Positions 1,540 through 64,000 of a DNA stretch of 64,000 nt are shown piece by piece. The notes under the pieces are model-generated. The model made no database searches. It was not told where the DNA came from and saw nothing but the letters and a program-made list of their open reading frames with translations. The stretch covers positions 20,425,971-20,489,970 of the forward strand of contig OZ025257.1 in assembly GCA_964019135.1 (NCBI GenBank), written 5' to 3'. This stretch comes from Arenicola marina. Lineage: Eukaryota > Annelida > Polychaeta > Arenicolidae. The position numbers and the translations under genes were made by a program. Each line of letters opens with the position of its first letter. Within the stretch, counting starts at the first letter, position 1.

Positions 1540-14878
<13,339 letters not shown>

Positions 14879-15131
14879 CAACCGCTACCATGGCAACGAC
14901 GGGGTACAGTGGTTGGGGCAAGCTGTACAGACGCAAGGATTGGGGGGTTCGGGATGACTGGGCTGACGATGGACAGACCGTAACGTCAGAATGCCCCTGG
15001 TTACCTGCTTCAGTCGCACGCCGATGAGGCCGATATCTGTCAGTGGGTGGTTCGCGCATGCCCTCTGGCTCCTAGCAACGCAGACGGCTGGTCGTCACCA
15101 GCGAGGAGGAAGAAATCAAGGATGAAAAACC

Positions 15132-31947: not shown

Positions 31948-31972
31948 CACGTGACCGGCCAAAATGGCGGAC
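31948..31972 (+). promoter_or_regulatory. E-box and YY1-like motif at the RELCH start
   Basis: CACGTG is at 31948-31953, 10 bp before the ATG. AAAATGGCGGAC at 31961-31972 covers the start codon and matches the YY1 motif closely. The mirror-image arrangement at CDT1 makes chance less likely. Confidence 0.5.
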
Positions 31973-34900
31973 TTCAATCCATTTCTGCAAGCAGATGATC
32001 TTATTGAGAACGAAATGGTTCCTCAACAGATAGCTACGATGATTGAGATTACGGAGGAAGCTCCCGATATATCGCCTGTGATAGAAACTAATGTTATCAC
32101 ATTAGATCATGTCGCTACAAAGCTTATTCAGAGTAACTTCACTTTGACAGCTCTTGAATTGCACACTGAGTTATTGGAATCTGGACGTGAACTCCCACGT
32201 CTGAGAGACTTCTTTTCAAATCCTGCTAATTTTGAGCGAACGAAGACAACACCATCGGAGTTATCGCCAACTGGTCTAGGTGAGTTTCCATTAGCTCATT
32301 ACTGTGGTTTACATGGCAGTAATACAAATTGTTATGCAAGTATTCGTCATGGAAAACTCAATAAAGATTAACACTGTCACAGTGTCAGTGGGTGCATTTC
32401 CTTGGTAACCTGGGTGTATCCCCAAGTTGAACCGAATACGCACATTGCACATCAGTTTACAGCCCGACACTTCTTTCACCCAAGTCTGGTGTGCTCGCAT
32501 CCATGCTGTATGCTGATATGCCCAGTTTCAAACAGGACAGAAGGTTTAGGAGCAGATAACGGCTTTTTGAAAAGTGACTTGTCTAGGCTGGTTCCATTAC
32601 CCCTAGATATACCAGGAGGGGTCTGGGGAACTTAAAATAAATATTGCTAAAAAAGCTATTATGGCCCGCCACCAGTGCAGTATAATGTCATAACTGTTTG
32701 ATACTGTTTTTCACTTATTTATGAGCTAGTGTAAAAAATATATCTTACATAATGTAAAATGATTTAGAAATGTGTTACTGTATTACACTTGCTACAACTC
32801 AGTATCATTTATGCATAACATCTCAATCCAGCAATGGGTGCTGCCATATTTTCCAGGTTCTGTGCAGAAGCACAAATTACAGGGATAGCCTAGGGAAATA
32901 CAGCATCATCCAGTTTCTGTTCGGGCAAAAACCCAGTTAGACCATGTATACAGGTTAGCTAGACTGCATTAGATTTGAGCTGCAGGAAGTTTTGACTAGT
33001 TAATAGAGTGGGATAAAAACTGGAGCTATAGGGGTGGGGGATGGTAGGTGATGCAGATGTAGTAATCTATTGAGGAGAGGTTGGTACCAATGACTTAGGC
33101 AATGGAGTTATGTTCAGGTGATAGTTTGTGAGAGAAAGCTTTTGAAAGGGATTAACATAATGAAGATAAGATCTGGATATTAATCAATAAGCTATTAAGA
33201 TGCTGTGTGGTTTAAAAAATGTTGTTCTATTTGTTAATGGAAATAATATCATATTCAAAGGTACAAATTGCTATCATTCCCAAATGGACACATTTTACAA
33301 CCTGGAACAGGATAGATATGGCATGGAACTGCTAACAATATAGAGAGTTCATGCTAACACACTCACTATAAACATGATAAATGAATTGAAGAACTATAGT
33401 ACCAGCTTAAGCTTACAAATGGGGCTAAGATCTATAGATACTTATTGCATAAGAATGGGATAGATTTCAAGATGTACCTGCATGTAAAATTACATATTTT
33501 GGCCTGTCTAATAGCCAATTAGTTCTCCCACATCACCTTTTGCTTTTATAATCCCTATCTGGTATCATATCAATGTAAAACAATTTGCTGCAAACATAAC
33601 CATCTACAACAATTAGTTCCATCAACCTCTATACCTCTCCCTCCAACTTCTTGTCAAGTGTCAGGCTAATATAGTCATCTCTCATGTAACACTGAATCGC
33701 TGTCCCATCCTCTTTGGTAGGTTGTATTCAATTAGCCTGTTAGGTAGCAGAAAGATTAAATATTATACATTTATAAATAGCTTGTTGAACCTACATTAGC
33801 AGCCGTAACTGGAGTCTTGTAAATAGGTGTATATTTTGAGAGAACATCATTTATGTTTATTGTACTTGTCCCTTGATTAAATAAATAAATATTGAACTGA
33901 ACATTCTGATATAAGCACAACATTCATGCCTGAAATAGATCAATGCATAAAGTGCTCAGATGAATAGCTGTAACTTTTGTGATGATGGCAGAGAACTCAG
34001 CACTAACCTTAGCAAGACCCTCATATATGATATATAGAGTATTGAATTTGCCAACAATATTTTGATGCCCTGTTTTCAGCTCGCACATCCAGTGTGCAGA
34101 CATTTGATTCTTTGGATTTTGCAAGATATTCTGATGATGGGGAGCGTCAAGAGAGTGACAGAGTTGCAGGTCAGATATCAAATGGTGGAAATTAATTGTT
34201 TTGTGACTATAAAGTTTAGCATATTTATTTATTAGCATATTTATTAGCAGAAGTAAGCGTTAGCATATTTATTAGCAGAAGTAATCTCTTGCATATTTAT
34301 TAGCAGAAGTAAGCTTTAGCATATTTATTAGCAGAAGTAATCTCTTGCATATTTAGTAGACGAAGAGATCTTTGGCATATTTATTAGCAGAAGTAAGCTT
34401 TAGCATATTTATTAGCAGAAGTAATCTCTTGCATATTTATTAGCAGAAGTAAGCTTTAGCATATTTATTAGCAGAAGTAATCTCTTCCATATTTAGTAGC
34501 CGAAGAGATCTTTAGCATATTTATTAGCAGAAGTAATCTCTAGCATATTTATTAGCAGAAATAATCTTTGTGGAATCAGATTGTAATCTCGACAGAGGAG
34601 CATATTTGTAGTAATCTGGTTATCACTAATGTCTGTCTTACGCGAGTTATACATATATGCTGATTAATCAATTTATTCATTTAAATTTCAGTTCTTGAGT
34701 TCGAGTTAAGGAAGGCTCAAGAAACCATCAGATCTTTGCGAGATGCATTGACCAAAAGCGCAGGTAAGTGCAGAAGAACACCTCCAGGGTACTCCGATAC
34801 GACATAACCAATGAAGTGATAAATGATAAATAATAAATTACATTACACTGTCCATATACAAGCAGCACAGTTCTAGTAGTGGTTCCTCTCCCCTGACATA

Positions 34901-37900
34901 GTTACACTACTACATGTACTCATATTACTCTGTCAAGAAACATGTAATGAGGAACATTCATGTAAGATAGGAGTAGAATTTGTACATAATTGCCAAACCT
35001 TTTCAGTAAATTTGGTTTTTTTAACTTGTAATTCCGTCAAATTGTGAGATAAACGAAGCCTCACTGTCAGTGATCCAGTTACATTGTTAACCACTTGGTT
35101 GTAGAGACTGAGCTCTCCTCACCCGAAGCTCCCGAAGACCAAGCACAAAACTTGGAGGGAGACGAACCCATCAAAGCATATGAAAAGAGAGCCATCAACT
35201 ACCTTGTCAATGAATATCTCATGATTAATGACTATAAGCTGACATCAGTAACATTCGCAGAGGAAAATGAAAATCAGGTTTGTGGCTTGTTCTTCAGTAA
35301 TATCTACATGTTACTCTATGATGTTCATCAAAAACAGAATAATGCAAGATAACTTTAGGGCTTATGTATTACATAGCCTCTTGGAAATGTATTACATTGC
35401 CTCTTGGAAATGTATTACATAGCCTCTTGGAAATGTATTACATAGCCTCTTGGAAATGTATTACATTGCCTCTTGGAAATGTATTACATAGCCTCTTGGA
35501 AATGTATTACATAGCCTCTTGGAAATGTATTACATAGCCTCTTGGAAATGTATTACATAGCCTCTTGGAAATGTATTACATACTCTCATCAAATATGCCA
35601 GCTTCCTTTTTTGAAATTTATATTTGTATAACCGTTTCCGTTCTACTATAACCATACATTGCACATTGCTTACACATAAGTGGCAGCCTTATCCTCATGC
35701 CCTCACTACGCTCCTGGGCTTACCATGGGCATCATCTGGGTTAAGCTCATGCTCTGCAAGTGATCAACGCCAGCACTGTGGTGATCAGCATTGATGATAT
35801 GTGTGCTGCAGGACTTTGAAGACTGGGATGACGTGGGTCTGAACATCCCCAAGCCGCCTGACTTCCTCCACCTCTACCGAGACTTCGGTCAGCGCACCTC
35901 GCCCTGTGTCGACAAGAAGGACTTCAGCTGCATGGCTCACCTCGACAGCGCCACCGACGAGGAGCAGCTGCAAGAAATCATACAGGAGAAGATAAAGATG
36001 GTATATTGATATAACCTGTTATTTAGATCCGTGCATCAGCAAAGACGTGACCTGGTTTTGTTGGTGGGGTCTGCTTAGTTACGGCGTGGACATGTTCTGT
36101 GGCGTAAAAGATCGCTTTACGTACTTCTTCAACGGTAATTGACGTGGTCAATGACGTGGACATAGGTCCTAGTTTCATGTATTTAGTTTCTTTGTGTTTT
36201 TTTATTGGTTTTGAAGTAGGACGCTTTAAGCTGTGTAGGTCATATCGCGACAATGAAAAGGGTCAAAGTAGAGAGGAGCCATCTCTCCGGGGTAACTCCC
36301 CTACTCTTTACGAAGAAAGGCAAGGGATCTTTTTCTTGCACGAACATATTTGCACAGTTGGGGTTGGAACCACGCACCGGGTGCTCGGATTGACCAAGCA
36401 GAGCACAGTCGATAATAGCCGAACGCCCTACCTACTAAGCCCCTGTTTCTTTGTTGGAACGGGTTAACAGTCAAAATGCGAATCATGCCTGTTTTTTGTT
36501 TTTTTCTTGACTTGGAAGGTTTTTACAAGGCGCCATCCAAATGGCTTGGTTGTGAGCGCGCTCGGCTTTGTCGAGTGAGCTCTGCCAGGCTATTGTAGGG
36601 GAGTTACCACCCCCCCTAAGGCACATGGCTCTGCTCTGCCCGTCATCCTCCCCACTGACTTAATGCATGAGTCAAAGAGACCTACATTAATCACCTCAGC
36701 TATAATCGTGTTTAAATGTACGCTTCTTATTCACCTTTCAGACCAGTCAAATAGCCAGAATGGATGAGCAGATTCACAATATTATGGCAGAGAATGATAT
36801 CCTTAGTCACCAACTGAAAGAGATGGAAAGGTACGATAATGACCGGTATGCATTTCTACTGAACGTGATATAGACTCTCATATTAATTGGCTTAATGCAC
36901 GGATAATTTTAATATCTTTTCTAAATTGGCACGCGTACAATCGAACTTTATTGCAGCAGTACGTATAGGATTAAAACACAAGCTGACTTTATGTAAATAA
37001 TCTGTAAATACAAAAGATAAACGAGTGAATTAAGTTAAATTGCCTATGTATTGGACTGGTACGATAGCCTTTTTATTAAATGTCTAATAATGGGTGATCA
37101 AAGTAACTGTCAAATAACGCTTGTCACTTTTCCTTCGACCTGACAAGATATTGGATGGGTGAAATGAGAAGAGTCGTTGAGTAAGCTTTTCTCAATGAGA
37201 ATCGATGACGTTTAAGTTGGTGTTAGTCAGTAGCATAATGTTTCTCTCTAATAAGTTTGATTCCTCATGGATTGCGACTGTGGCTATGATTTACCTGAAT
37301 GAAAATTTCGGAAGTTTGACAGGTCGTAATGTGTTGTATTCAATTTAATCGATTCATTTTAATTAATTTTATCTGAAATTGTCAATAGCGGGTATGGTAT
37401 TTTTGTATGTGAGGCAATTAATTTTTTTACAACGCATGATAATTAAGGTGCTTATGTGGTGTTACAGAATCCTGTTATTGCCCCTCATACAGGTGTCCAG
37501 TATTGGTTGCTGGGGGTATCGGTTGTAGTGGAATTTTATGCTCAGATTATAAAAACTTGTTATCTTTGAAATTCTCGTCAAGCTCAATCAAAGTAAAAAC
37601 AAGTTTAACAAAAGGTGTTCTTTTCCATATATGCAAAACAGTACACAAATGAGCGTATTCGCTGGTATTAGATGCTAGGTACATGATTACTCCCCTCAAC
37701 GACCGCTAGAAATGTCAATCATGTCACTCGTAAATCGCGTACGACATTGACAATTAATTATATATCACTGTATGTTGATGTACTTAATAATATCCGGTGT
37801 TGTATATTAATTTTTAGTAATCTTAGTAACAAATTTATGGTTAGTTTCGTACAACAGTTACAGTTTTGCCGAACTCTAGATCGGTCACCGTAATCGAAAG

Positions 37901-40900
37901 CGCAGCATTAAGTCTGCCGTAGAACTGTTTAAGTGAAGTTATTTCGTATTTAAGCAAATGCACATTATAGTAATGACACGGCGTATTAGGAAATGGAAGG
38001 CCACTGTAGGTCTCTAGCCAGCTCATATAGTCATTATGTCACTGGTAATTAAAGTAATTAAACAAAGCGTCACGCTATTACGTATATTACGATACTCACT
38101 GATTATGTACGTAAAGATCCGTTAAGGTGTACTGGAGATATTCATCAGGTACATCATTTACGTTCACGCGCGTCAATGGAAAGTGTGTAACTAACTGCCT
38201 GACATTACTAACGTGTACGGGTTCCGTACGTCTCGCGTGTCTTATACATGTACAATGTATTCCATCTTTGTATTTGTTGATTTCTCCAAATTGTTGTGAC
38301 AGTTAATTAACATGATATCTAAATATTTATTCCTCACATTTTACATAAGTAATGCTTTCGCATTGTCTTGAACTTGCACCTTATCTGATATCTGAACAAT
38401 ACATTCTTATGATTTATCTTTCGTCTATTTCTCCGTCAGGGTAATATATAATACTGTCCCTAGTTTTACGTCTCTGTCCATGTATCTTATCTTCCGAACA
38501 GAAGAACACTATTTCTATTAATCCATTCTCTTGTTGGGTTTTTAATAATGCGTTTGTATTATAGGGACGCTGATACGTCGCGAGCTATACCTCTGAAGTC
38601 CTCCACCCCTGCTGTGAGCCCCATTAAACCCCCCACCTACTCCACCCCCGCTACGCACAAAGCTCCGACTCGGGCCCGAGAGCCGCCACCAGATGGCGAC
38701 ACTGCCGCGGACGTCGACGAGAGCGGCGTAGAACCCCTGAGAGACGCTACGACGTCATCTCTGGAGTCGTCCAATGGGACGGTGAACGGCCCGACGCAGG
38801 GAGCTGTCTTCGCTGAAAGTTTACCCCTGGGACTCGGGGAGAGCGCGGACCCCAATCACTTGAACAACTCTAGTCAAATCCCGAATCATACCATGAACTC
38901 GCTGAAGGTGGAGGTGGGGTCTACATTGTCCGACCCCAATCTCACCGTCACGGATTCCACTTTCGCGTCTTCCGAGCAAAGCCAAACGACTCCATTCACA
39001 TGGCAACCGTCACGAAGGTAACACGCTTGTCTAATGATACACATAGCGTATGTAAGTGACCGTACAATGTGCGTGCAGATACCTCCAAAAGATACTAACA
39101 TCTTCTGCACTCATTGAGCTAACATTGACATAATCTGATGTGTGCGTTAATATGAAGTTATTTATTACACTCCCAAGCCATATTGGTTCCAACACACTGT
39201 ATATTCTTGATAACATATTAAAGTCCCATGTTGATGACACTTATATTCCAAGAGAGCATTGTGTGTTTAATACGGGGGCATGCATCCCTAATAGGTATGC
39301 ATGCCCTTGTAATTTACTTTTACGTTGGTTGCAGAAATAGGTCTGAAGCCAACGTAAAGGTTACGTTTCATGTGGCACAATAGCAAGTGATAAATAATTA
39401 GCAAGTAACAGCTACCCTGGCCAAACGTTTTTTTCTCAGTGGAAGCGTGTGTGGTTTATGTATATTTGTGTTCCAGGAAGTTGTCGTCGGCATTCCAATC
39501 GGCGCTGATGAGTACTGCATTCCAAGTGTCGCACGACAACCGTATCATCCGAGAGGTGGGTGTCGTCACTGAAGCCTTACAATATATATATATATATATA
39601 CCGTAGTTGCTCGATCAAAAGCCCGGGCGGTTATTTTCTGTCACGACATTTCCTGAGACGAGCCTGTCATTGTGGCCTAAGATAACGCCCCTAGCAAATG
39701 TGTGATATCTCTGGTTTCAGTCACGGTACAGCTATTTATACCTGTACATGTAGTCCACATGTGCCACAAACAGATTCACTTATATATGCATCAAAGGTAT
39801 AACGATCTACTGGTATTAACTGACCTCCTCCGGTCATATTTGTGTTGTGCTTGCAGTGTTGGTGCCAAGTTATTGATTAGTTAAGTTTTGCCTATTAACA
39901 TATATTAACAATATAACACATAATAATGTGTTTTTAATAACAGGTAACAGTCTCTATCCCATGAAGTCACTAAAAACGGATTATTCAAAGTCCGATCTGT
40001 TTCTTTTTTTCTTTTTTGGACCGATACTCCATGTAGACAGGCGCTATGCTATTTTGTCCATCTACTCCATGTAAACATTCGCTATGCTATGTTGTCCATG
40101 TACTCCATGTAAACATTCGCTATGCTATGTTGTCCATGTACTCCATGTAAACAGGCGCTATGCTATGTTGTCCATGTACTCCATGTAAACAGGCGCGATG
40201 CTATGTTCTCCATGTACTCCATGTAAACAGGCGCTATGCTACGTTGTCCATGTACTCCATGTAAACAGGCGCTATGCTATGTTGTCCATGCACTGCATGT
40301 AAACAGGCGCTATGCTATGGTGTCCATTTACTCCATGTAAACAGGCACTATGCCATGTTGTCCATGTACTCTATGTAACCAGGCGCTATGCTATGTTGTC
40401 CATGTACTCCATGTAACCAGGCGCTATGCTATGTTGTCCATGTACTCCATGTAAACAGGCGCTATGCTATGTTGTCCATGTACTCCATGTAAACAGGCGC
40501 TATGCTATGTTGTCCATGTACTCCATGTAAACAGGCGCTATGCTATGTTGTCCATCTGTCCAAATGTAAACAGGCGCTATGCGATGTTGTTCATGTAGGT
40601 GTCCAAGCTGACAGACTCCAGTGGAGAGAAGGTGGTGCTCATGCTGGGGCGGTGCCTGCCTCACATCGTACCCAACGTGCTGCTCGCCAAGAGAGAGGTA
40701 GGCTGAGTCCGCATTGTGCGCCATCAAAGGCTGCTCAATTATTGCTCGTGTTACGTCCTTACTCTTTGCGAAAGAGTTAAATATGGAGTCCATCATTGTA
40801 ATGCATGCTGCCTCTTTGCGAAAGAGGTAAGTATGGCTCGGCATGATGATGTCTCGGCGGTAAATTTCCCCAAACTTTTTTCGAACGAAACAATCTGGAA

Positions 40901-43900
40901 TTGATGTGATGGGGTGTGTCTCTTTGCGGAGCAAGAATAATTGGGCCTTGTCCTCTGGTAGTCGCCACGACTCTTTGCGACGGACATACTTGACCGCGCA
41001 CCAAACCTGACCTGTCGTGACGTCACGTGACCTACACGTGGTGCATGCCCGGACTTTGTTTCCTTCAGGAGCTGATCCCGTTGATTTTGTGCACGGCCAC
41101 CCTGCATCCAGACAACAAGGAGCGGGACCAACTCCTCAACATCCTCTTCAACCTCATCAAGCGGCCGGACATGGAACAAAGGTCCGTACAACAGCCTACA
41201 GCAACATGACATGTTTGTCTGGATATCTTAATATGCAATAGTTTATTTAATGCAGTCATTAAATTTAAAAAAAACATTTCAATTTATTTTTGTATTAATA
41301 CAACATTTAGTCTTGTGCAACATAATAGATACCGATAATGAATTATAAAAATAACATCAGTCATTAGCAAGAATATAATAATCAAATATAAAAATTACAT
41401 CAGTCATTAGCAAGAAATTATTAATGAAATGTTAACATAGCCTCAGTCATTAGCAAGAAATTACTAATTCGATATTTGAACAGTGCATCGTAGATTAATA
41501 TTGTACATAGTTCAGGTTGAGATGCTATTCGTATGGCACAAGGGCGTTATTTCAACATCCTCACATATCCTAGGATAAAAAATGTGTTCTGTGATAAAAC
41601 CCATCGCGCACGAGAAACTATGTCATTTGTATTTTCTCGCATGAACCTCAGTAAATTTCACCCTGATAGAAGGTTTATACATACAAATGCGCAGTCGCTG
41701 AGTGCGAGATGAGTTTATCCCGGACTTGGTGTCACAATAGGCCGCAGCTAACTGAGTGTGAAATCCATGGGATGTGAGTGAACCCTCGTTGCTTGTTTCT
41801 TGCAGACACATTATCCTGACTGGGTGCGTGGCCTTTGCTCAGCACGTGGGACCCGAGCGGGTGGAAACAGAACTACTGCCTCAGTGCTGGGAACAGGTTC
41901 GCAAGGCCCATGTTATTACTCTACATATAAATATACATGTTGTGAACGCCAATTATTAATACAAATATAATTACACACGTTTGTGCAAGTCAGTTATTAC
42001 AATATGTATAAACATACAGGCAAAAAGATATTACTTTAACGTCAATTATTACTATACAAATAAATATACAGGTTCTGAATACCAATTATTACTATAATAT
42101 AAATGTACAGGTTCTAATCTAACCTATACCCGTTGCTCGTAAAGTTAGGATCAGTCGTTACATCAGCCTGAACAGATTTCAGTGAAACGATCTCCAGATC
42201 TCCTGTACTGATGCGTGCTTGTGTGAGATGTGGAGCTACCCTCACCACGGACTGTTGTGTCAGTTGTGGCGATACGCTCTCCCAGGACTGAGGACTGAAA
42301 GGATTTCTGTTTGTAGATTACTCATAAGTACGCTGAGAGACGGCTGTTAGTGGCGGAGGCCTGTGGAGCCCTGTCGCCATACCTACCGGTGAGTGTACAG
42401 AGCATTTTAGTACCAATCTCCTTCTGTTATGTTGCGGATCAGTAACATTTCTTCTGACATGCTGCAAATCAGTGATACATGTCTTTTGATAAAAGTCAGT
42501 AAGATATTTCTTCTGATATGTTGCGAATCAGCAACACATTTTATGTGATCTGTTGCAAATCAGCAACACATTTCATGTGATATGTTGCGAACCAGCAACA
42601 CATTTTATGTGATCTGTTGCAAATCAGCAACACATTTCATGTGATATGTTGCACATCAGTAACATTTCTTCTGATATGTTGCAACTCAGTCTTACATTTC
42701 TTTTGATACAAGTCAGTAATATATTTCTTCTGATATGTTGCAAATCGGGAACACATTTCATCTGATATTTTTTCATTCAGTAATACTTCTTTCTCACATA
42801 TTACCGTAGTAGTATAATTATTTATTTAAGTGACACCTGGCATGAAAGACTACATAATATACAATCATTTAGTTGTGTGAAATACAACAGCAAGGTAACA
42901 TCGGCCAACCAGCTTTACGAGTCACTATCACCTAAACATTATCAGTATAACAGCACACTATAGTATTATGCTTCGCAAATAATATACATGCAGTTAAGTC
43001 TCAAGATTTAATTATACAGTGACTGCTATAGGATGTTTCGTCGCTTAACATGCTTCGTCGTTTAACAGATGTTTCGTTGCTTAACAGATGTTTCGTCGCT
43101 GTTACATGGCTCCTGATGCATGGGGTATATTGAGTTGTCTGTGACGGCCGGTCTGTCTGTGTGTCTCTCTCGTCAGAACGAGATCCGCAGTTCGCTGGTG
43201 CTCTCCATGTTGAACCAGATGCTCCAGGATGACAAGACGGAGGAGGTCCGGGAGGCCGTCGTCCGGAGCCTCGGACTTATCATGGGATTCATCGACGATC
43301 CCGACAAGTTCTCCCAGGTAAGTCCGGGCGTCAGGAATTAACTTGTAATAATTGTATTAATAAAGAATAAACTCGTAATAATTGTATTAATAAGGAATAA
43401 ACTCGTAATACTTGTGATAATAAGGAATAAACTCGTCAAAAGTTTATTAACAAAGAATAAACTCGTAATAATTGTATTAATAAGGAATAAACTCGTAATA
43501 CTTGTATTAATAAGGAATAAACTCGTAAAAATTGTATTAATAAAGAATAAACTCGTAATAATTGTATTAATAAGGAATCAACTCCTAATAATTGTGTTAA
43601 TAAGGAATTGTAATAATTGTAATAAAACTTAGTTGGTTGGTTGTATATTCAGGACGCTAAGCACTTTTGATCTTATCCCGCCGTCAATGGGAGAAGGAAG
43701 GGAGGCTCTCAGGTGGCCAGAGCGCTCAATGCGCTAACCCACTGGGCTATCAGGGCGGCCCTCTTGTGGAGCGGATACGACTCTCTAAATGTACCTCAGC
43801 AGGGCGCGGAGATGCAGTCCGGTTAAATTCCCCAATGCTCTATTGCGGTCCATGCACTCCGGTCTGTTTCTGTGGTTGTGCAGGGCGCCGAGATGCTGTA

Positions 43901-46900
43901 CGTGACACTGTATTCCGGTCTGTTTCTGTCGTTGTGCAGGACGCCGAGATGCTGTACGTGGCACTGTACTCTGGTTTGTTTCTATCTTTGAGCAGGGCGC
44001 CGAGATGCTGTACGTGACACTGTACTTTGGTCTGTTTCTGTCGTTGAACAGGGCGCCGAGATGCTGTACGTGGCACTGTACTCTGGTCTGTTTCTATCTT
44101 TGAGCAGGGCGCCGAGATGCTGTACGTGACACTGTATTCCGGTCTGTTTCTGTCGTTGATCAGGGCGCCAAGATGCTGTACGTGACACTGTATTCCGGTC
44201 TGTTTCTGTGGTTGTGCAGGGCGCCGAGATGCTGTACGTGACACTGTATTCCGGTCTGTTTCTGTCGTTGTGCAGGGCGCCGAGATGCTGTACGTGGCAC
44301 TGTACTCTGGTCTGTTTCTATCTTTGAGCAGGGCGCCGAGATGCTGTACGTGGCACTGTACTCTGGTCTGTTTCTATCTTTGAGCAGGGCGCCGAAATGC
44401 TGTACGTGACATTGTACTCCGGTCTGTTTCTGTCGTTGAGCAGGGCGCCGAAATGCTGTACGTGACATTGTACTCCGGTCTGTTTCTGTCGTTGAGCAGG
44501 GCGCCGAAATGCTGTACGTGACACTGTATTCCGGTCTGTTTCTGTGGTTGTGCAGGGCGCCGAGATGCTGTACGTGACACTGTATTCCGGTCTGTTTCTG
44601 TCGTTGTGCAGGGCGCCGAGATGCTGTACGTGACACTGTATTCCGGTCTGTTTATGTCGTTGAGCAGGGCGCCGAAATGCTGTACGTGACATTGTACTCC
44701 GGTCTGTTTCTATCTTTGAGCAGGGCGCCGAGATGCTGTACGTGGCACTGTACTCTGGTCTGTTTCTGTCGTTGAGCAGGGCGCCGAGATGCTGTACGTG
44801 GCACTGTACTCTGGTCTGTTTCTGTCGTTGAGCAGGGCGCCGAGATGCTGTACGTGGCACTGTACTCTGGTCTGTTTCTATCTTTGAGCAGGGCGCCGAG
44901 ATGCTGTACGTGGCACTGTACTCTGGTCTGTTTCTGTCGTTGAGCAGGGCGCCGAGATGCTGTACGTGGCACTGTACTCTGGTCTGTTTCTGTCGTTGAG
45001 GAGGGCGCCGAGATACTGTACGTTACACTGTACTCTGGTCTGTTTCAGTCGTTGAGCAGGGCGCCGAGATGCTGTACGTGGCACTTTACTCTGGTCTGTT
45101 TCTATCTTTGAGCAGGGCGCCGAGATGCTGTACGTGGCACTGTACTCTGGTCTGTTTCTGTCGTTGAGCAGGGCGCCGAGATGCTGTACGTGGCACTGTA
45201 CTCTGGTCTGTTTCTGTCGTTGAGCAGGGCGCCGAGATGCTGTACGTGGCACTGTACTCTGGTCTGTTTCTATCTTTGAGCAGGGCGCCGAGATGCTGTA
45301 CGTGGCACTGTACTCTGGTCTGTTTCTGTCGTTGAGCAGGGCGCCGAGATGCTGTACGTGGCACTGTACTCTGGTCTGTCTCTGTCGTTGAGCAAGGCGC
45401 CGAGATGCTGTACGTGGCACTGTACTCTGGTCTGTTTCTATCTTTGAGCAGGACGCCGAGATGCTGTACGTGGCACTGTACTCTGGTCTGTTTCTGTCGT
45501 TGAGCAGGGCGCCGAGATGCTGTACGTGGCACTGTACTCTGGTCTGTTTCTGTCGTTGAGGAGGGCGCCGAGATACTGTACGTTACACTGTACTCTGGTC
45601 TGTTTCAGTCGTTGAGCAGGGCGCCGAGATGCTGTACGTGGCACTGTACTCTGGTCTGTTTCTATCTTTGAGCAGGGCGCCGAGATGCTGTACGTGGCAC
45701 TGTACTCTGGTCTGTTTCTGTCGTTGAGCAGGGCGCCGAGATGCTGTACGTGGCACTGTACTCTGGTCTGTTTATGTCGTTGTGCAGGGCGCCGAGATGC
45801 TGTACGTGGCACTGTACTCTGGTCTGTTTCTGTCGTTGATCAGGGCGCCGAGATGCTGTACGTGGCGCTGGCGGACAGCTCTGAGCGGGTCCTGAGCTGC
45901 GTGCACCACGTCTTGCTGCCGTCGTACGGAATGTGGGCGCTGGAGCTGGGCCGCCTACAGACCGACCTGCTGCAGTTACTGGTCGACAAGATGGAGCGTC
46001 TCGTCCAGGTCAGCACCGCACCGCCCCCACCCCCCTCGACAGGGGGACGTCGCTCGCCATTAATACTAGCAGGGCTGTGATAGAACTTGATTAAAAAGAG
46101 AGTAACCTTCTTTAATTTCAATCTAATTTTTTAATTTAGATCTGATTTTAATTTAGATCTGATTTTTTATATTTAGATCTGATTTTTAATTTAGATCTGA
46201 TTTTTAATTTAAATATGATTTTAATTTAAAAAGAATTTTAACAATTGAAATAGTTTTAGCAATTTCAATAGTTTTCTTGCATTTGAGTTCGTTTTAGCGA
46301 TATAGCATTTTAACATGTTAATATTATCTTTCTAACATGTGAATCTTTAAGATGTTCTTTTTCTTAGTAGCTGTTATTAGACTGACAAACGATGCCTTGA
46401 CATGGTAATTTGTGTTATGTGAATATAACGTTGCATTACTGATGAATTATTCAGACACACGTTGTAATGGATGGCCTTTCTCATATCTGACTGACTACAG
46501 ACTTGCCCATCGGGGTCGCGGCCCAGTGGCGCCCCTAGCGGTCCCACTGGAGGCTCGGTGCCGTGGGACCGCAGCCAATTTTGTCAGCTCGCTCTGACCG
46601 TCCAACACCTCACGCCGCTGCTCTTCGCTGCGGTACTCATGTCCGCGCCGTTTGCTGCGCACACCGACGGGGCCGACCATACGGAGGACCTACCCACCTA
46701 CTCCGGTGAGTCAAACGATTACAGTGGAGGCCGGTGGTTGTGAGTCGGTGTACCTTGCTTACAGTGGAGGCCGGTGGTTGTGAGTCGGTGTACTTTGCTT
46801 GCAGTGGAGGCCGGTGGCTGTGAGTCAGTGTACTTTGATTACAGTGGAGGCCGGTGGCTGTGAGTCGGTGTACTTTGATTACACTGGAGGCCGGCGGCTG

Positions 46901-49900
46901 TGAGTCAGTATACTTTGATTTCAGTGGAGGCCGGTGGCTGTGAGTCAGTATACTTTGATTACAGTGGAGGCCGGTGGCTGTGAGTCGGTGTGCTTTGATT
47001 ACAGTGGAGGCCGGCGGCTGTGAGTCAGTGTACTTTGATTACAGTGGAGGCCGGCGGCTGTGAGTCAGTATACTTTGATTACAGTGGAGGCCGGCGGCTG
47101 TGAGTCAGTATACTTTGATTACAGTGGAGGCCGGCGGCTGTGAGTCAGTATACTTTGATTACAGTGGAGGCCGGTGGCTGTGAGTCAGTGTACTTTGATT
47201 ACAGTGGAGGCCGGTGGCTGTGAGTCAGTGTACTTTGATTACAGTGGAGGCCGGTGGCTGTTAGTCGGTGTACTTTGATTACAGTGGAGGCCGGTGGCTG
47301 TGAGTCAGTGTACTTTAATTACAGTGGAGGCCGGTGGCTGTGAGTCGGTGTACTTTGATTACAGTGGAGACCGGCGGCTGTGAGTCAGTATACTTTGATT
47401 ACAGTGGAGGCCGGTGGCTGTGAGTCAGTATACTTTGATTAAAGTGGAGACCGGTGGCTGTGAGTCGGTGTACTTGGATTACAGTGGAGGCCGGTGGTTA
47501 TAAGTCAGTATACTTTGATTAAAGTGGAGGCCGGTGGCTGTGAGTCGGTGTACTTTGATTACAGTGGAGGCCGGCGGCTGTGAGTCAGTATACTTTGATT
47601 ACAGTGGAGGCCGGCGGGTGTGAGTCAGTATACTTTGATTACAGTGGAGGCCGGCGACTGAGAGTCAGTATACTTTGATTACAGTGGAGGCCGGCGGCTG
47701 TGAGTCAGTATACTTTGATTACAGTAGAGGCCGGTGGCTGTGAGTCTGTATACTTTGATTAAAGTGGAGACCGGTGGTTGTGAGTCGGTGTACTTTGATT
47801 ACAGTGGAGGCCGGTGACTGTGAGTCAGTATACTTTGATTACAGTGGAGGCCGGTGGTTGTGAGTCAGTATACTTTGATTACAGTGGAGGCCGGTGGTTG
47901 TGAGTCAGTATACTTTGATTACAGTGGAGGCCGGTGGTTGTGAGTCAGTATACTTTGATTACAGTGGAGACCGGTGGTTGTGAGTCAGTATACTTTGATT
48001 ACAGTGGAGGCCGGTGGCTGTGAGTCAGTATACTTTGATTACAGTGGAGGCCGGTGGTTGTGAGTCAGTATACTTTGATTAAAGTGGAGGCCGGTGGCTG
48101 TGAGTCAGTGTACTTTGATTACAGTGGAGGCCGGTGGTTGTGAGTCAGTATACTTTGATTACAGTGGAGGCCGGTGGTTGTGAGTCGGTGTACTTTGTTT
48201 ACAGTGGAGGCCGGTGGCTGTGAGTCAGTATACTTTGATTGCAGTGGAGGCCGGTGGCTGTGAGTCAGTGTACTTTGTTTACAGTGGAGGCCGGTGGTTG
48301 TGAGTCAGTATACTTTGATTAAAGTGGAGGCCGGTGGCTGTGAGTCAGTATACTTTAATTACAGTGGAGGCCGGTGGTTGTGAGTCAGTATACTTTGATT
48401 AAAGTGGAGGCCGGTGGCTGTGAGTCAGTGTACTTTGATTACAGTGGAGGCCGGTCGTTGTGAGTCAGTATACTTTGATTACAGTGGAGGCCGGTGGTTG
48501 TGAGTCAGTGTACTTTGTTTACAGTGGAGGCCGGTGGCTGTGAGTCAGTATACTTTGCTTGCAGTGGAGGCCGGTGGCTGTGAGTCAGTGTACTTTGCTT
48601 GCAGTGGAGGCCGGTGGCTGTGAGTCAGTATACTCTGATTGCAGTGGAGGCCGGTGGCTGTGAGTCAGTATACTTTGATTACAGTGGAGGCCGGTGGCTG
48701 TGAGTCAGTATACTTTGATAACAGTGGAGGCCGGTGGCTGTGAGACAGTGTACTTTGATTACAGTGGAGGCCGGTGGTTGTGAGTCAGTGTACTTTGCTT
48801 GCAGTGGAGGCCGGTGGCTGTGAGTCGGTGTACGTTGCTTGCAGTGGAGGCTGGTGGCTGTGAGTCAGTGTACTTTGCTTGCAGTGGAAGCCGGTGGCTA
48901 TGAGTCGGTGTACTTGGATTACATTGGAGGCTGGTGGTTGTGAGTCAGTATACTTTGATTACAGTGGAGGCCGGTGGCTGTGAGTCAGTATACTTTGATT
49001 CCAGTGGAGGCCGGTGGCTGTGAGTCAGTATACTTTGATTACAGTGGAGGCCGGTGGTTGTGAGTCAGTATACTTTGCTTGCAGTGGAGGCCGGTGGCTG
49101 TGAGTCGGTGTACTTGGATTACAGTGGAGGCCGGTGGCTGTGAGTCAGTATACTTTGATTACAGTGGAGGCCGGTGGTTGTGAGTCAGTATACTTTGATT
49201 ATAGTGGAGGCCGGTGGCTGTGAGTCAGTATACTTTGTTTACAGTGGAGGCCGGTAGTTGTGCGTCAGTATACTTTGATTATAGTGGAGGCCGGTGGCTG
49301 TGAGTCAGTAAACTTTGATTACAGTGGAGGCCGGTGGCTGTGAGTCAGTATACTTTGATTACAGTGGAGGCCGGTGGCTGTGAGACAGTGTACTTTGATT
49401 ACAGTGGAGGCCGGTGGTTGTGAGTCAGTGTACTTTGCTTGCAGTGGAGGCCGGTGGCTGTGAGTCGGTGTACGTTGCTTGCAGTGGAGGCTGGTGGCTG
49501 TGAGTCAGTGTACTTTGCTTGCAGTGGAAGCCGGTGGCTATGAGTCGGTGTACGTTGATTACAGTGGAGGCCGGTGGCTGTGAGTCGGTGTACTTGGATT
49601 ACATTGGAGGCTGGTGGTTGTGAGTCAGTATACTTTGATTACAGTGGAGGCCGGTGGCTGTGAGTCAGTATACTTTGATTCCAGTGGAGGCCGGTGGCTG
49701 TGAGTCAGTATACTTTGATTACAGTGGAGGCCGGTGGTTGTGAGTCAGTATACTTTGCTTGCAGTGGAGGCCGGTGGCTGTGAGTCGGTGTACTTGGATT
49801 ACAGTGGAGGCCGGTGGCTGTGAGTCAGTATACTTTGATTACAGTGGAGGCCGGTGGTTGTGAGTCAGTATACTTTGCTTGCAGTGGAGGCCGGTGGCTG

Positions 49901-52900
49901 TGAGTCGGTGTACTTGGATTACAGTGGAGGCCGGTGGCTGTGAGTCAGTATACTTTGATTACAGTGGAGGCCGGTGGTTGTGAGTCAGTATACTTTGATT
50001 ATAGTGGAGGCCGGTGGCTGTGAGTCAGTATACTTTGTTTACAGTGGAGGCCGGTAGTTGTGCGTCAGTATACTTTGATTATAGTGGAGGCCGGTGGCTG
50101 TGAGTCAGTAAACTTTGATTACAGTGGAGGCCGGTGGCTGTGAGTCAGTATACTTTGATTACAGTGGAGGCCGGTGGCTGTGAGACAGTGTACTTTGATT
50201 ACAGTGGAGGCCGGTGGTTGTGAGTCAGTGTACTTTGCTTGCAGTGGAGGCCGGTGGCGGTGAGTCGGTGTACGTTGCTTGCAGTAGAGGCTGGTGGCTG
50301 TGAGTCAGTGTACTTTGCTTGCAGTGGAAGCCGGTGGCTATGAGTCGGTGTACGTTGATTACAGTGGAGGCCGGTGGCTGTGAGTCGGTGTACTTGGATT
50401 ACATTGGAGGCTGGTGGTTGTGAGTCAGTATACTTTGATTACAGTGGAGGCCGGTGGCTGTGAGTCAGTATACTTTGATTCCAGTGGAGGCCGGTGGCTG
50501 TGAGTCAGTATACTTTGATTACAGTGGAGGCCGGTGGTTGTGAGTCAGTATACTTTGCTTGCAGTGGAGGCCGGTGGCTGTGAGTCGGTGTACTTGGATT
50601 ACAGTGGAGGCCGGTGGCTGTGAGTCAGTATACTTTGATTACAGTGGAGGCCGGTGGTTGTGAGTCAGTATACTTTGCTTGCAGTGGAGGCCGGTGGCTG
50701 TGAGTCGGTGTACTTGGATTACAGTGGAGGCCGGTGGCTGTGAGTCAGTATACTTTGATTACAGTGGAGGCCGGTGGTTGTGAGTCAGTATACTTTGATT
50801 ATAGTGGAGGCCGGTGGCTGTGAGTCAGTATACTTTGTTTACAGTGGAGGCCGGTAGTTGTGAGTCAGTATACTTTGATTATAGTGGAGGCCGGTGGCTG
50901 TGAGTCAGTATACTTTGATTACAGTGGAGGCCGGTGGCTGTGAGTCGGTATACTTGGATTACATTGGAGGCCGGTGGCTGTGAGTCAGTGTACTTTGATT
51001 ACAGTGGAGGCCGGTGGCTGTGAGTCCGTATACTTTGATTACAGTGGAGGCCGGTGGCTGTGAGTCAGTATACTTTGTTTACAGTGGAGGCCGGTAGTTA
51101 TGCGTCAGTATACTTTGATTATAGTGGAGGCCGGTGGCTGTGAGTCAGTATACTTTGATTACAGTGGTGGCCGGTGGCTGTGAGTCAGTATACTTTGATT
51201 ACAGTGGAGGCCGGTGGCTGTGAGACAGTGTACTTTGATTACAGTGGAGGCCGGTGGTTGTGAGTCAGTGTACTTTGCTTGCAGTGGAGGCCGGTGGCTG
51301 TGAGTCGGTGTACGTTGCTTGCAATGGAGGCTGGTGGCTGTGAGTCAGTGTACTTTGCTTGCAGTGGAAGCCGGTGGCTATGAGTCGGTGTACGTTGATT
51401 ACAGTGGAGGCCGGTGGCTGTGAGTCGGTGTACTTGGATTACATTGGAGGCTGGTGGTTGTGAGTCAGTATACTTTGATTACAGTGGAGGCCGGTGGCTG
51501 TGAGTCAGTATACTTTGATTCCAGTGGAGGCCGGTGGCTGTGAGTCAGTATACTTTGATTACAGTGGAGGCCGGTGGTTGTGAGTCAGTATACTTTGCTT
51601 GCAGTGGAGGCCGGTGGCTGTGAGTCGGTGTACTTGGATTACAGTGGAGGCCGGTGGCTGTGAGTCAGTATACTTTGATTACAGTGGAGGCCGGTGGTTG
51701 TGAGTCAGTATACTTTGATTATAGTGGAGGCCGGTGGCTGTGAGTCAGTATACTTTGTTTACAGTGGAGGCCGGTAGTTGTGAGTCAGTATACTTTGATT
51801 ATAGTGGAGGCCGGTGGCTGTGAGTCAGTATACTTTGATTACAGTGGAGGCCGGTGGCTGTGAGTCGGTATACTTGGATTACATTGGAGGCCGGTGGCTG
51901 TGAGTCAGTGTACTTTGATTACAGTGGAGGCCGGTGGCTGTGAGTCAGTATACTTTGATTACAGTGGAGGCCGGTGGTTGTGAGTCAGTATACTTTGATT
52001 ATAGTGGAGGCCGGTGGCTTTGAGTCAGTATACTTTGTTTACAGTGGAGGCCGGTGGCTATAAGTCAGTATACTTTGATTACAGTGGAGGCCGGTGGCTG
52101 TGAGTCCGTATACTTTGATTACAGTGGAGGCCGGTGGCTGTGAGTCAGTATACTTTGATTACAGTGGAGGCCGGTGGTTGTGAGTCAGTATACTTTGCTT
52201 GCAGTGGAGGCCGGTGGCTGTGAGTCGGTGTACTTTGATTACAGTGGAGGCCGGTGACTGTGAGTCGGTGTACTTTGATTACAGTGGAGGCCGGTGGCTG
52301 TGAGTCGGTGTACTTTGATTACAGTGGAGGCCGGTGGCTGTGAGTCAGTGTACTTTGATTACAGTGGAGGCCGGCGGCTGTGAGTCGGTGTACTTTGAAT
52401 ACAGTGGAGGCCGGTGGCTGTGAGTCAGTGTACTTTGATTACAGTGGAGGCCGGTGGCTGTTAGTCGGTGTACTTTGATTACAGTGGAGGCCGGTGGCTG
52501 TGAGTCAGTGTACTTTGATTACAGTGGAGGCCGGTGGCTGTGAGTCGGTGTACTTTGATTACAGTGGAGGCCGGCGGCTGTGAGTCAGTATACTTTGATT
52601 ACAGTGGAGGCCGGTGGTTGTGAGACAGTGTACTTTGATTACAGTGGAGGCCGGTGGTTGTGAGTCAGTGTACTTTGCTTGCAGTGGAGGCCGGCGGCTG
52701 TGAGCTGACCCGTCTCTCTGTGATAGTGGGCACCCCGGAGCGGGCGGTCAGTCTGACCCAGGGCTACCAGAACCACATCTCTCAGGAGTGGTACGAGCCC
52801 TGGGAGGGCCTCAGCTGGGTCAGCGGACACCTGTAAGTACCTGTAACACAGGCCACGTGGTTATCTTTTGGTTATCATATGTATGTTTGCATGGCGTGCT

Positions 52901-55900
52901 CTCAGCCTGTGGTACACTTTGTGTCTTAGATCAATATAATAACAAGGAACAAATAAAGCAATAAACTCTATGACTAAATGTTCATGGTTCGTGACAGAGG
53001 TATCGTCGTCGAATGAATATGTTTACACCAACGTTTAAATTGATAACATGTCGTTCAGAATAACTCTCGACAAAGAAGTATTGTTGTGTTGCTGGTGTTA
53101 GTTCAAAGGGCATCTATGTCACAGTTACAAGCGTTTATCTCCTTAGCATCTCCCAGTTGCTGAGTACTTTACGTTTATCTCATCAGCATCCCTCAGTTGC
53201 TGCTGAGTGCTTTCCGTTTCTACCGTCAACATCTCCCAGTTGTTGCTGAGTGCTTTCCGTTTCTCTCCTGAGCATTTCCCAGTTGTTGCTGAGTGCTTTC
53301 CGTTTCTCTCCTCAGCATCTTCCCGTTGCTGAGTGCTTTCCGTTTCTCTCCTCAGCATCCCCCAGTTGTTGAGGGCATTTCGTTTCTCTCCTCAGCATCC
53401 CCCAGTTGCTGAGTGCTTTCCGTTTCTCTCCTCTGCATCACCCAGTTGTTGACTGCTTTCCGTTTCTCTCCTCAGCATCCCTCAGTTGCTGAATGCTTTC
53501 TGCTTCTCTCCGCAGCATTCCCCAGTTGTTGCTGAGTGCTTTCCGTTTCTCTCCTTAGCATTTCCCAGTTGTTGCTGAGTGCTTTCCGTTTCTCTCCTCA
53601 GCATCTTCCCGTCGCTGAGTGCTTTCCGTTTCTCTCCTCATCATCCCCCAGTTGTTGAGGGCATTTCGTTTCTCTCCTCAGCATCCCCCAGTTGCTGAGT
53701 GCTTTCCGTTTCTTTCCTGAGCATTTCCCAGTTGTTGCTGAGTGCTTTCCGTTTCTCTCCTCAGCATCCCCCAGTTGCTGAGTGCTTTCCGTTTCTCTCC
53801 TCTGCATCGCCAGTTGTTGCTGACTGCTTTCCGTTTCTCTCCTCAGCATCCCACAGTTGCTGAATGCTTTCTGCTTCACTCCTCAGCATTCCCCAGTTGT
53901 TGCTGAGTGCTTTCCGTTTCTCTCCTGAGCATTTCCCAGTTGTTGCTGAGTGCTTTCCGTTTCTCTCCTCAGCATCTCCCCGTTGCTGAGTGCTTTCCGT
54001 TTCTCTCCTGAGCATTTCCCAGTTGTTGCATACTGCTTTCCATTTCTCTCCTCAGCATCCCACAGTTGCTGAATGCTTTCTGCTTCTCTCCTCAGCATTC
54101 CCCAGTTGTTGCTGAGTGCTTTCCGTTTCTCTCCTTAGCATTTCCCAGTTGTTGCTGAGTGCTTTCCGTTTCTCTCCTCAGCATCCCCCAGTTGCTGAGT
54201 GCTTTCCGTTCCTCTCCTCTGCATCACCCAGTTGCTGAGTGCTTTCCGTTTCTCTCCTGAGCATTTCCCAGTTGTTGGGTGCTTTCCGTTTCTCTTCTCA
54301 GCGTCCCCCAGTTGCTGAGTGCTTTCGTCGTTTCTCTCCTCAGCATCCCCCAGTTGCTGAGTGCTTTCGTCGCTTTTCTCCTTAGCATCCCCAGTTGCTG
54401 AGTGCTTTCCGTTTCTCTCCTCGGCATCCCTCGGTTGCTGAGTGTTTTCCGTTTCTCTCCTCAACATCCCCCAGTTGTTGAGTGCTTTCTGTTTCTCTCC
54501 TCAGCATTCCCTAGTTGCTGAGTGCTTTCCGTTTCTCTCCTCAGCATCCCCCAGTTGTTGGGTGCTTTCCGTTTCTCTTCTCAGCATCCCCCAGTTGCTG
54601 AGTGCTTTCGTCGTTTCTCTCCTCAGCATCCCCCAGTTGCTGAGTGCTTTCCGTTTCTCTCCTCAGCATCCCCCAGTTGCTGAGTGCTTCCCGTTTCTCT
54701 CCTCGGCATCCCCCAGTTGCTGAGTGCTTTCTGTTTCTCTCCTTAGCATCCCCCAGTTGCTGAGTGCTTTCCGTTTCTCTCCTCAGCATTCCCCAGTTGC
54801 TGAGTGCTTCGTCGTTTCTCTCCTCAGCATCCCCCAGTTGCTGAGTGCTTTCGTCGTTTCTCTCCTCAGCATTCCCCAGTTGCTGAGTGCTTTCCGTTTC
54901 TCTCCTCAGCATCCCCCAGTTGCTGAGCGCTTTCTGTTTCTCTCCTCAGCATCCCCCAGTTGCTGAGCGCTTTCTGTTTCTCTCCTCAGCATCCCCCAGT
55001 TGCTGAGCGCTTTCTGTTTCTCTCCTCAGCATCCCCCAGTTGCTGAGTGCTTTCCGTTTCTCTCCTCAGCATCCCCCAGTTGCTGAGCGCTTTCTGTTTC
55101 TCTCCTCAGCATCCCCCATTTGCTGAGTGCTTTCTGTTTCTCTCCTCAGCATTCCCCAGTTGCTGAGCGCTTTCTGTTTCTCTCCTCAGCATCCCCCAGT
55201 TGCTGAGTGCTTTCCGTTTCTCTCCTTAGCATCCCCCAGTTGCTAAGTGCTTTCTGTTTCTCTCCTCAGCATCCCCCAGTTGCTGAGTGCTTTCCGTTTC
55301 TCTCCTCAGCATTCCCCAGTTGCTGAGTGCTTTCGTCGTTTCTCTCCTCAGCATCCCCCAGTTGCTGAGTGCTTTCGTCGTTTCTCTCCTCAGCATCCCC
55401 CAGTTGCTGAGCGCTTTCTGTTTCTCTCCTCAACATCCCCCAGTTGCTGAGCGCTTTCTGTTTCTCTCCTCAGCATCCCCCAGTTGCTGAGTGCTTTTTG
55501 TTTCTTTCCTCAGCATCCCCCAGTTGCTGAGTGTTTTCCGTTTCTCTCCTCAGCATCCCCCAGTTGCTGAGTGCTTTCGTCGTTTTTCTCCTCAGCATCC
55601 CCCAGTTGCTGAGTGCTTTCCGTTTCTCTCCTCGGCATCCCTCGGTTGCTGAGTGTTTTCCGTTTCTCTCCTCAACATCCCCCAGTTGTTGAGTGCTTTC
55701 TGTTTCTCTCCTCAGCATTCCCCAGTTGCTGAGTGCTTTCCGTTTCTCTCCTCAGCATTCCCCAGTGGTTGGGGGCTTTCCGTTTCTCTCCTCAGCATCC
55801 CCCAGTTGCTGAGTGCTTTCGTGGTTTCTCTCCTCAGCATTCCCCAGTTGCTGAGTGCTTTCCGTTTCTCTCCTCAGCATCCCCCAGTTGCTGAGTGCTT

Positions 55901-58900
55901 CCCGTTTCTCTCCTCAGCATCCCACAGTTGCTGAGTGCTTTCCGTTTCTCTCAGCATCCCCCAGTTGCTGAGTGCTTTCCGTTTCTCTCCTCAGCATCCC
56001 CTAGTTGTTGAGTGCTTTCTGTTTCTCTCCTCAGCATTCCCCAGTTGCTGAGCGCTTTCCGTTTCTCTCCTCAGAATCCTCCAGTTGCTGAGCGCTTTCT
56101 GTTTCTCTCCTCAGCATCCCCCAGTTGCTGAGCGCTTTCTGTTTCTCTCCTCAGCATCCCCCAGTTGCTGAGCGCTTTCTGCTTCTCTCCTCAGCATCCC
56201 CCAGTTGCTGAGTGCTTTCCGTTCCTCTCCTCAGCATCCCCCAGTTGCTGAGTGCTTTCCGTTTCTCTCCTCAGCATCCCCCAGTTGCTGAGTGCTTTCA
56301 GTTTCTCTCCTCAACATCCCCCAGTTGCTGAGCGCTGTCTTTTTCTCTCAGCATCCCCAAGTTGCTGAGTGCTTTCCGTTTCTCTCCTCAGCATCCCCCA
56401 GTTGCTGAGTGCTTTCCGTTTCTCTCCTCAGCATCCCCCAGTTGCTGAGTGCTTTCCGTTCCTCTCCTCAGCATCCCCCAGTTGCTGAGTGCTTTCAGTT
56501 TCTCTCCTCAGCATCCCCTAGTTGCTGAGCGCTTTCTTTTTCTCTCAGCATCCCCAAGTTGCTGAGTGCTTTCCGTTTCTCTCCTCAGCATCCCCCAGTT
56601 GCTGAGTGCTTTCCGTTTCTCTCCTCAGCATTCCCCAGTTGCTGAGCGCTTTCCGTTTCTCTCCTCAGCATCCCCCAGTTGCTGTGTGCTTTCCGTTTCT
56701 CTCAGCATCCCCCAGTTGCTGAGTGCTTTCCGTTTCTCTCCTCAGCATCCCCCAGTTGCTGACTCTGCTGAATCGCGTCGACCTCTCCCACCCCACGGTT
56801 GTCCACAGACTCGTCAAACTCGTCTTCACACTGTGTCGAACCTTCGGCAGGACTTTCACTTTATCCAAGGTACTGTACCATTGACAGTTCCCACGGTCAT
56901 GGGAAATCCTTTAATATCCTTGAAAAGATGAATCTGGAAAGAAAAGTCTTGGAAAAAATCCATTTTTATTTTTCAAACTAATCTGGGAAAGTTGCAGTAG
57001 GGGTAAACAGTCCTGGACAAATTATGAAATTCTACCCTTACTTTCCCGATTTCACAACTCATTATTTGGGAGAGGGGGGAGGGGGTACATTGCGCACTGT
57101 GACCAATGGCATTACCAAGCTCATATTACACTATCATCCATATCATGTTTGCACCTTGACATAGGTACCAAATGATGTACTGAAATAGTCTTCGAGATAC
57201 TCAATTATTTTAAACTGATGTAAATGACAATAGTTTTTCCTACGACGGGAAAATGCCAACCAGTATTCTATATATATTCATAAATCACATAGCGGTTGCA
57301 GTTTGTGTACAGATAGTTGAGTCTGCTAATAATGCCGCGTTAATATTTTCAGGTCAAACAGCGCTTTCAGGTTGTGATGAACATTCCAGAAGATCAGATC
57401 GGTAAGGACGCTCAACCACGCGCACTCTCCGCCCGTGTGGCAACCTCGAGACTTGCGATTTAAAGACGCTCATCTGATTATATAATGCGTCTACCTCACT
57501 TAGCATTTAGTTAAAATACTAATTAATTACTCTTTATGGTGGATACCAAATATTATGTCAGTAAAAAAAGCCAGGTTTTCCGACAGCAGAACTGTTTAAA
57601 GGCAGTTTCAGTACGTGCATGAGGGATGTCTTGCGTGCATGTCTGTACGTGCATGTCTTTCTTAGTATTTTTGAATACAGTAATGCTTGGAGAAGTGCTA
57701 AAATCAAATTATTTATGTATTAGTGAAATTGTACTTTTTATTTTAATGCAGATACCCAGGTGTCCGCGGGACGCACGCCGCTGACCAAGTGCACAGTGCC
57801 GGTGTACGCTGCCGGCGTACTGAGTGCTTTCAGTCAGGTAGGGGTGCAGTGTCGGTGTACGCTGCCGGCGTACTGAGTGCTTTCAGTCAGGTAGGGGTGG
57901 AGTGCCGGTGTACGCTGCCGGCGTACTGAGTGCTTTTAGTCAGGTAGGGGTGGAGTGCCGGTGTACGCTGCCGGCGTACTGAGTGCTTTCAGTCAGGTAG
58001 GGGTGGAGTGCCGGTGTACCCTGCCGGCGTACTGAGTGCTTTCAGTCAGGTAGGTGTCTATTAGTACATAGCAATTATTCAGTATTATAACAAGTATAAA
58101 CTAGGGGCCCTCCCTGGTGTAGTGGTTAGCGCACAAGACCGCAGATCTAAAAGGTATGGGTTCGACTCCGGACTCGGGCATCTAATGTGGGTTTCATCTA
58201 TTCATCTTTTATCGCCCCGGAAGGTTCCTTCGCCTAATTTAGCAGCTTGGGCACAAAAGCGGCCTTCATCACCAATTGATTTTATTTCAATTATAAACCT
58301 ATATGCCTTTCACACTGTCTTTATTATATTTAATGTCATGTTTCTTGCAGGAAGAAGACTTGAAACAACTGACTTCATTCCTCCAGGACCTGCTCTGCAC
58401 TCTGTCCATCTGTCAGGCTCCACTAGATAGCGTCAAGGCAGCATTTGTTGAACTATGGTAAGAGTACCACGTGCTTTCCGGTCTCGTGGAGTCTCACAGT
58501 TTCTCGTAGCCACGCGGCAACTCCTATTACTCCTATTACTCCTTATTACTTTTCGGTGAACGATATTAAAAATTGTATCTTGCGGAATGCAAGTTGTATT
58601 AAGTTTTATTGTTATTGCCAGTTTCAATCTATTAATATGTGTATCTTTACATTAAGGAAACCGCAATATTTGGCACTTGCTGATGATGGATCCCTGTTAA
58701 ATAAATATGTTATTACCCACATTTGCGTTAACTTCAATAGATTACATTGAAAGTACAACATTTATATCTCCTCTAACCGAAACACATATCATATTGGGTG
58801 CAAAAAGCGTTAAAAACTGTGATACACTCATAATTTTACTGACACTGTTTACGTCATTTGTGCGTCGTCACGGATATAAGAAGATAAACTACACGTATGT

Positions 58901-63858: not shown

Positions 63859-64000
63859 TGCAGCGTTGCCTTATTACGCAGCGTTGCCTCATTATGCAGC
63901 GTTTCCTCATTACGCAGCGTTGCGTCATTATGCAGCGTTGCCTTATTACGCAGCGTTGCCTCATTATGCAGCGTTTCCTCATTACGCAGCGTTGCGTCAT
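63859..64000. repeat. 18-bp minisatellite reaching the window edge, RELCH intron 24
   Basis: Units of GCAGCGTTGCCTCATTAC type repeat about eight times. Four variants (ccttattac, cctcattat, tcctcattac, cgtcattat) recur in order, giving a 72-bp higher-order unit. It starts about 110 bp past the exon 24 donor and continues beyond the window. Confidence 0.9.

Follow-up and report, generated by a model that had tools for sequence, protein, structure and literature searches.

Mirages, minisatellite-like tandem repeats of exon-intron boundaries, were first named at amphioxus Adh (Adh3; Canestro et al., 2002, as cited in PMC3087553), and later cases were described in globins (BflGb6, BflGb9), troponin C and PGBD5 (PMC3087553; PMC3902484). 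The amphioxus Adh case mentioned in an earlier note on the DNA analysed here is thus real. Donors as well as acceptors can be repeated, many copies keep AG or GT, and it has been proposed that mirages seed new introns (PMC3087553; PMC3902484). They are reported not to disturb the normal mRNA, and RT-PCR at the globin mirages indicated normal splicing (PMC3087553). The arrays in RELCH and PHAF1 described below are built in the same way, and their pattern would fit the Branchiostoma origin assumed in the earlier note.

The window, i.e., the whole analysed stretch of 64,000 nucleotides, contains three genes, RELCH, PHAF1 and CDT1, for which exon models were built by hand from the sequence. RELCH (31964-63746, plus strand), in which HEAT repeats were recognized by Pfam, extends beyond the window, and its exons 1-24 join into an open frame of 1068 aa with zero stops. 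PHAF1 (1540-14879, plus strand; Pfam PHAF1, E 3.1e-165) has 14 exons that join into a full open frame; in both genes the exon numbering used in the earlier note is correct. CDT1 lies on the minus strand between PHAF1 and RELCH, and its model has a frame shift near the 3' end at the exon 9/10 boundary, where there is no array. The names RELCH and CDT1 are putative and were given by resemblance. Arrays account for 44% of the span of RELCH (31964-63746), compared with 4% for CDT1 and 11% for the intergenic segment 14880-23939. A further array with 18/36/72-bp periodicity (63859-64000) starts 112 bp past the exon 24 donor and exceeds the window end. RELCH intron 23 harbors a 429-residue open frame on the minus strand (61975-63264) which, judged by eye, resembles the C-terminal portion of the reverse transcriptase of a non-LTR retrotransposon; a poly-A-like tail is found on its 3' side, as poly-T at 61841-61866.

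Twenty-one intronic arrays can be found in the three gene models, including all six that had been cited before, which Tandem Repeats Finder returned at the same positions. Each intronic array was matched against every one of the 92 exon edges in the three genes, using exon sequence only and with the exon part of the functional copy taken out of the query beforehand. For four arrays the best match among the 92 is the neighbouring edge itself, scoring 49 against 21 for the next best edge at RELCH exon 14, 34 against 25 at exon 17 and 86 against 23 at exon 19, while at PHAF1 exon 12 the lead is narrow (21 against 20). In these arrays a single unit spans the exon-intron boundary and holds sequence of both sides, the homology crossing the junction and ending abruptly at a single position within the exon. 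In the other tested intronic arrays, the own exon edges rank unremarkably among the 92, and no hidden or decayed junction copies were detected. The earlier view of six junction-linked arrays therefore stands for four, whereas the arrays at RELCH exon 9 and in intron 15 abut splice sites without recognizable exon sequence.

Regarding the acceptors, the RELCH exon 14 array (43856-45870, plus strand) consists of 36 units of 56 bp, each combining 29 intron and 27 exon nucleotides. According to the exon model the functional copy is the last unit; exon 14 starts at 45844, and the array extends 27 nt into it with 26 of 27 bases identical to the unit consensus. The exon 17 array (53132-56762, plus strand) comprises about 90 copies of a 40-bp unit (23 intron and 17 exon nucleotides), and here too the modelled functional copy is the last one, exon 17 starting at 56746 and all 17 array nucleotides within it being identical to the consensus. 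Of the two donor arrays, that of RELCH exon 19 (57795-58054, plus strand; 4.9 units of 53 bp, with 43 exon and 10 intron nucleotides) begins 43 nt inside the exon with 43/43 identity, and the first donor, at 57838, is the functional one in the model. These three arrays had been described as plain copies of their junctions, which the identities of 26/27, 17/17 and 43/43 confirm. The sixth cited array, at PHAF1 exon 12 (13366-13529, plus strand), has about five units of 33 bp (22 exon and 11 intron nucleotides) and begins 27 nt inside the exon; the first donor, at 13393, is functional according to the model, and 27 of the 33 bases of the junction unit equal the consensus. Despite its weak score, it is accepted as a junction copy because all 11 of its intron bases agree with the consensus and because TGCGGCACCA is common to the exon and the most distal copy.

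The copies in these arrays often keep their AG or GT. At exon 14 the AG is intact in 35 of 36 units, one further unit having lost the preceding C twice, and the decoy AGs, with 1 change in 72 bases, are not preferentially lost; at exon 17, AGCAT is kept in 60 of 68 segments. By a crude position matrix derived from about 40 sites of the window's own introns, the used acceptor is equalled or outscored by 21 decoy AGs at exon 14 and by 51 at exon 17, and by the same matrix the four decoy donors at exon 19 score 8.2-10.8, compared with 8.2 for the used donor. Since the decoys are intact and, by this crude measure, as strong as the used site, sequence alone does not choose the used copy. Arrays with 20-50 intact decoy acceptors whose scores equal or exceed that of the used site are natural experiments on how splicing chooses among near-identical copies.

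Splicing at a strong decoy would in most cases introduce a premature stop codon, namely for 18 of 19 at exon 14, 25 of 26 at exon 17 and each of the four repeat-unit donors at exon 19. PHAF1 differs, as its 33-bp units (13393-13530) are in frame and free of stops, so that use of a decoy donor would add 11-residue repeats to the protein. Only the last copy of a duplicated acceptor, and only the first of a duplicated donor, can be joined to the exon body with no repeat units left in the mRNA. The observation that the copy touching the exon is always the functional one and that growth is always into the intron holds in all junction arrays; it is not independent evidence of a directed process, because purifying selection for an intact coding sequence, together with exon calling, imposes it.

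The four arrays are probably amphioxus-type mirages that arose by local tandem duplication and are tolerated through exon-proximal splicing. A local segment of 33-56 bp, spanning a junction by accident, would have been duplicated in tandem, and the array would then have expanded and been partly homogenized like an ordinary minisatellite. Selection at the protein level would permit such an array only if splicing stays at the copy touching the exon body and, because joining at the exon-proximal copy is required, the surviving arrays would all lie on the intron side. Exon definition is known to favor the splice sites closest to each other across an exon, while for human 3' splice sites the effect is partial, the upstream preference being reduced but not reversed (PMC9225289). 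In the now-long introns it would likely pair the last acceptor or the first donor, whereas decoy copies, which lack the rest of the exon, would be disfavored. Exon definition thus predicts the correct copy at acceptors and donors alike, with the published effect for 3' sites being partial. That the RELCH and PHAF1 mRNAs are normal is suggested by the open models joined at the exon-proximal copies. The arrays are most likely tolerated passengers rather than elements with a demonstrated function.

The main alternative, which the earlier note had proposed in place of chance, is a recurrent process that targets junctions and makes arrays commoner there than elsewhere. It might act at exon edges through breaks, replication stalling or R-loops, or consist in selection for extra splice signals. 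Placement was evaluated for the set of 21 arrays as the frequency with which segments of the observed unit length, placed at random, extend into an exon by at least 10-15 nt, with the arrays removed from the intron lengths. A duplication inside an exon changes the protein, whereas one inside an intron or across a junction need not do so. When each array is kept in its own intron, 2.3-2.9 junction copies are expected against the four observed (P 0.18-0.31, or 0.10-0.48 with other score cut-offs). When the arrays are distributed over all introns, each weighted by its length, 1.3-1.6 are expected (P 0.03-0.07), and a subset chosen post hoc, arrays with at least four copies, gives P 0.007-0.016 under this whole-gene null. 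All these P values are affected by the choice of the window, which was picked for its visible pattern. The introns were short before expansion (median 424 bp), so a duplicated segment of 30-60 bp would often span an edge. Mirages in several unrelated amphioxus genes speak for targeting; however, the published cases were also found singly and with no denominator given in the cited papers. Taken together (four observed, 1.3-2.9 expected, P about 0.03-0.31), the counts do not support the proposed recurrent process over chance placement and, given how the window was selected, they do not establish a junction-directed process, while a real excess is possible. Targeting is accordingly an unlikely explanation. 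Hardly more probable is the broader proposal that tandem duplication has true hotspots at the exon-intron junctions of cephalochordates, with dozens of intact decoys per intron ignored through an exon-proximity rule and in-frame protein repeats occasionally added. Chance duplication combined with selection for an intact spliced message accounts for the arrays well enough, and a pattern that selection tolerates can easily be mistaken for a targeted process.

It can also be supposed that the array came first, an intronic minisatellite having reached the exon, after which a splice site was recruited from one of its repeats or the exon boundary shifted into the array. This suits exon 9 best. The array at its acceptor in RELCH intron 8 (40025-40597, plus strand; 15 units of 38 bp) ends 1 bp before exon 9, which starts at 40599, and provides the acceptor TAG, which differs from the TAC of the repeat unit. 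Its last unit had been said to form the acceptor, and it does provide the TAG, but it is not a copy of the junction; no exon 9 sequence can be recognized in the array, whose own edge ranks 19th of 92. The array-first order possibly applies to intron 15 as well, where 150 units of 40 bp (46717-52704, plus strand) occupy 5988 of the 6021 bp of the intron (46706-52726), i.e., nearly all of it. This array was described as beginning exactly at the donor; it adjoins the splice site but starts 11 bp past the donor. No sequence of exon 15 or 16 is recognizable in it (edge ranks 69 and 40 of 92), and it was rejected as a junction copy, having only 8 bp in common with the donor, GTGAGTCA. For neither the exon 9 nor the intron 15 array is boundary-spanning exon homology above background. 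The intron 15 units hold acceptor-like and GTGAGT motifs, 15 nt apart in each 40-bp unit; 123 of the acceptor-like sites, and only one donor, reach the lower quartile of the authentic sites. At exons 14, 17 and 19 and at PHAF1 exon 12, by contrast, the sequence held in common is coding sequence that fits the frame of the open protein model, so that the exon is the likelier source, and an array-first origin is improbable as a general account.

The exon 14 and 17 arrays carry a trace of their history, their exon-distal units being the most diverged (rho -0.45; blocks falling from 5.3 to 3.1), whereas no significant gradient was found in the six other tested arrays. Just beyond the exon 14 array, on its exon-distal side, lies a degenerate remnant of the unit (43797-43822, plus strand; 21/24 matches: AGCAGGGCGCGGAGATGCAGTCCG). 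Distal divergence and a decayed outer copy are to be expected of an array founded by the exon copy, and both arrays are in this respect weakly consistent with a putative founder at the exon end. The polarity was rejected as proof of directional growth, neighbouring units being related, so that P values overstate the gradient. An assembly artefact that misbuilt or inflated the arrays, as long exact internal blocks might suggest (576 bp in the intron 15 array, 287 bp in that of exon 14), is very improbable given the ordered point variants, the divergence gradients and the decayed edge copy, and given that mirages occur in independent amphioxus data, those of PGBD5 being backed by resequencing. 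The copy number of the arrays, read from one haplotype, may nevertheless be wrong.

With regard to other known systems, the four arrays share their period range and variant structure with ordinary intronic minisatellites, as represented by the 17 other intronic arrays here, and differ from these in a unit that includes 17-43 nt of coding sequence. As in the gain or modification of introns by tandem duplication (Rogers 1989 model; Gao and Lynch, 2009; human ITRs, PMC2812944; reviewed in PMC3443670), duplication has produced extra splice signals within a gene. Unlike in that process, existing boundaries are copied, with no sign of a newly made intron; an intron with duplicated AGGT-type sites at its two ends is not seen, since the copies concern a single boundary and the opposite boundary of each intron shows no unit homology above background. 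Such arrays represent raw material for the evolution of introns and protein repeats. The closest counterparts are the amphioxus mirages, from which the present arrays differ in the genes concerned, in copy number (36 and about 90 copies, compared with 2-7 in globins and PGBD5) and in the presence of three junction-copying arrays in a single gene, RELCH. As far as the cited papers show, RELCH and PHAF1 are new members of the mirages relative to the published amphioxus cases.
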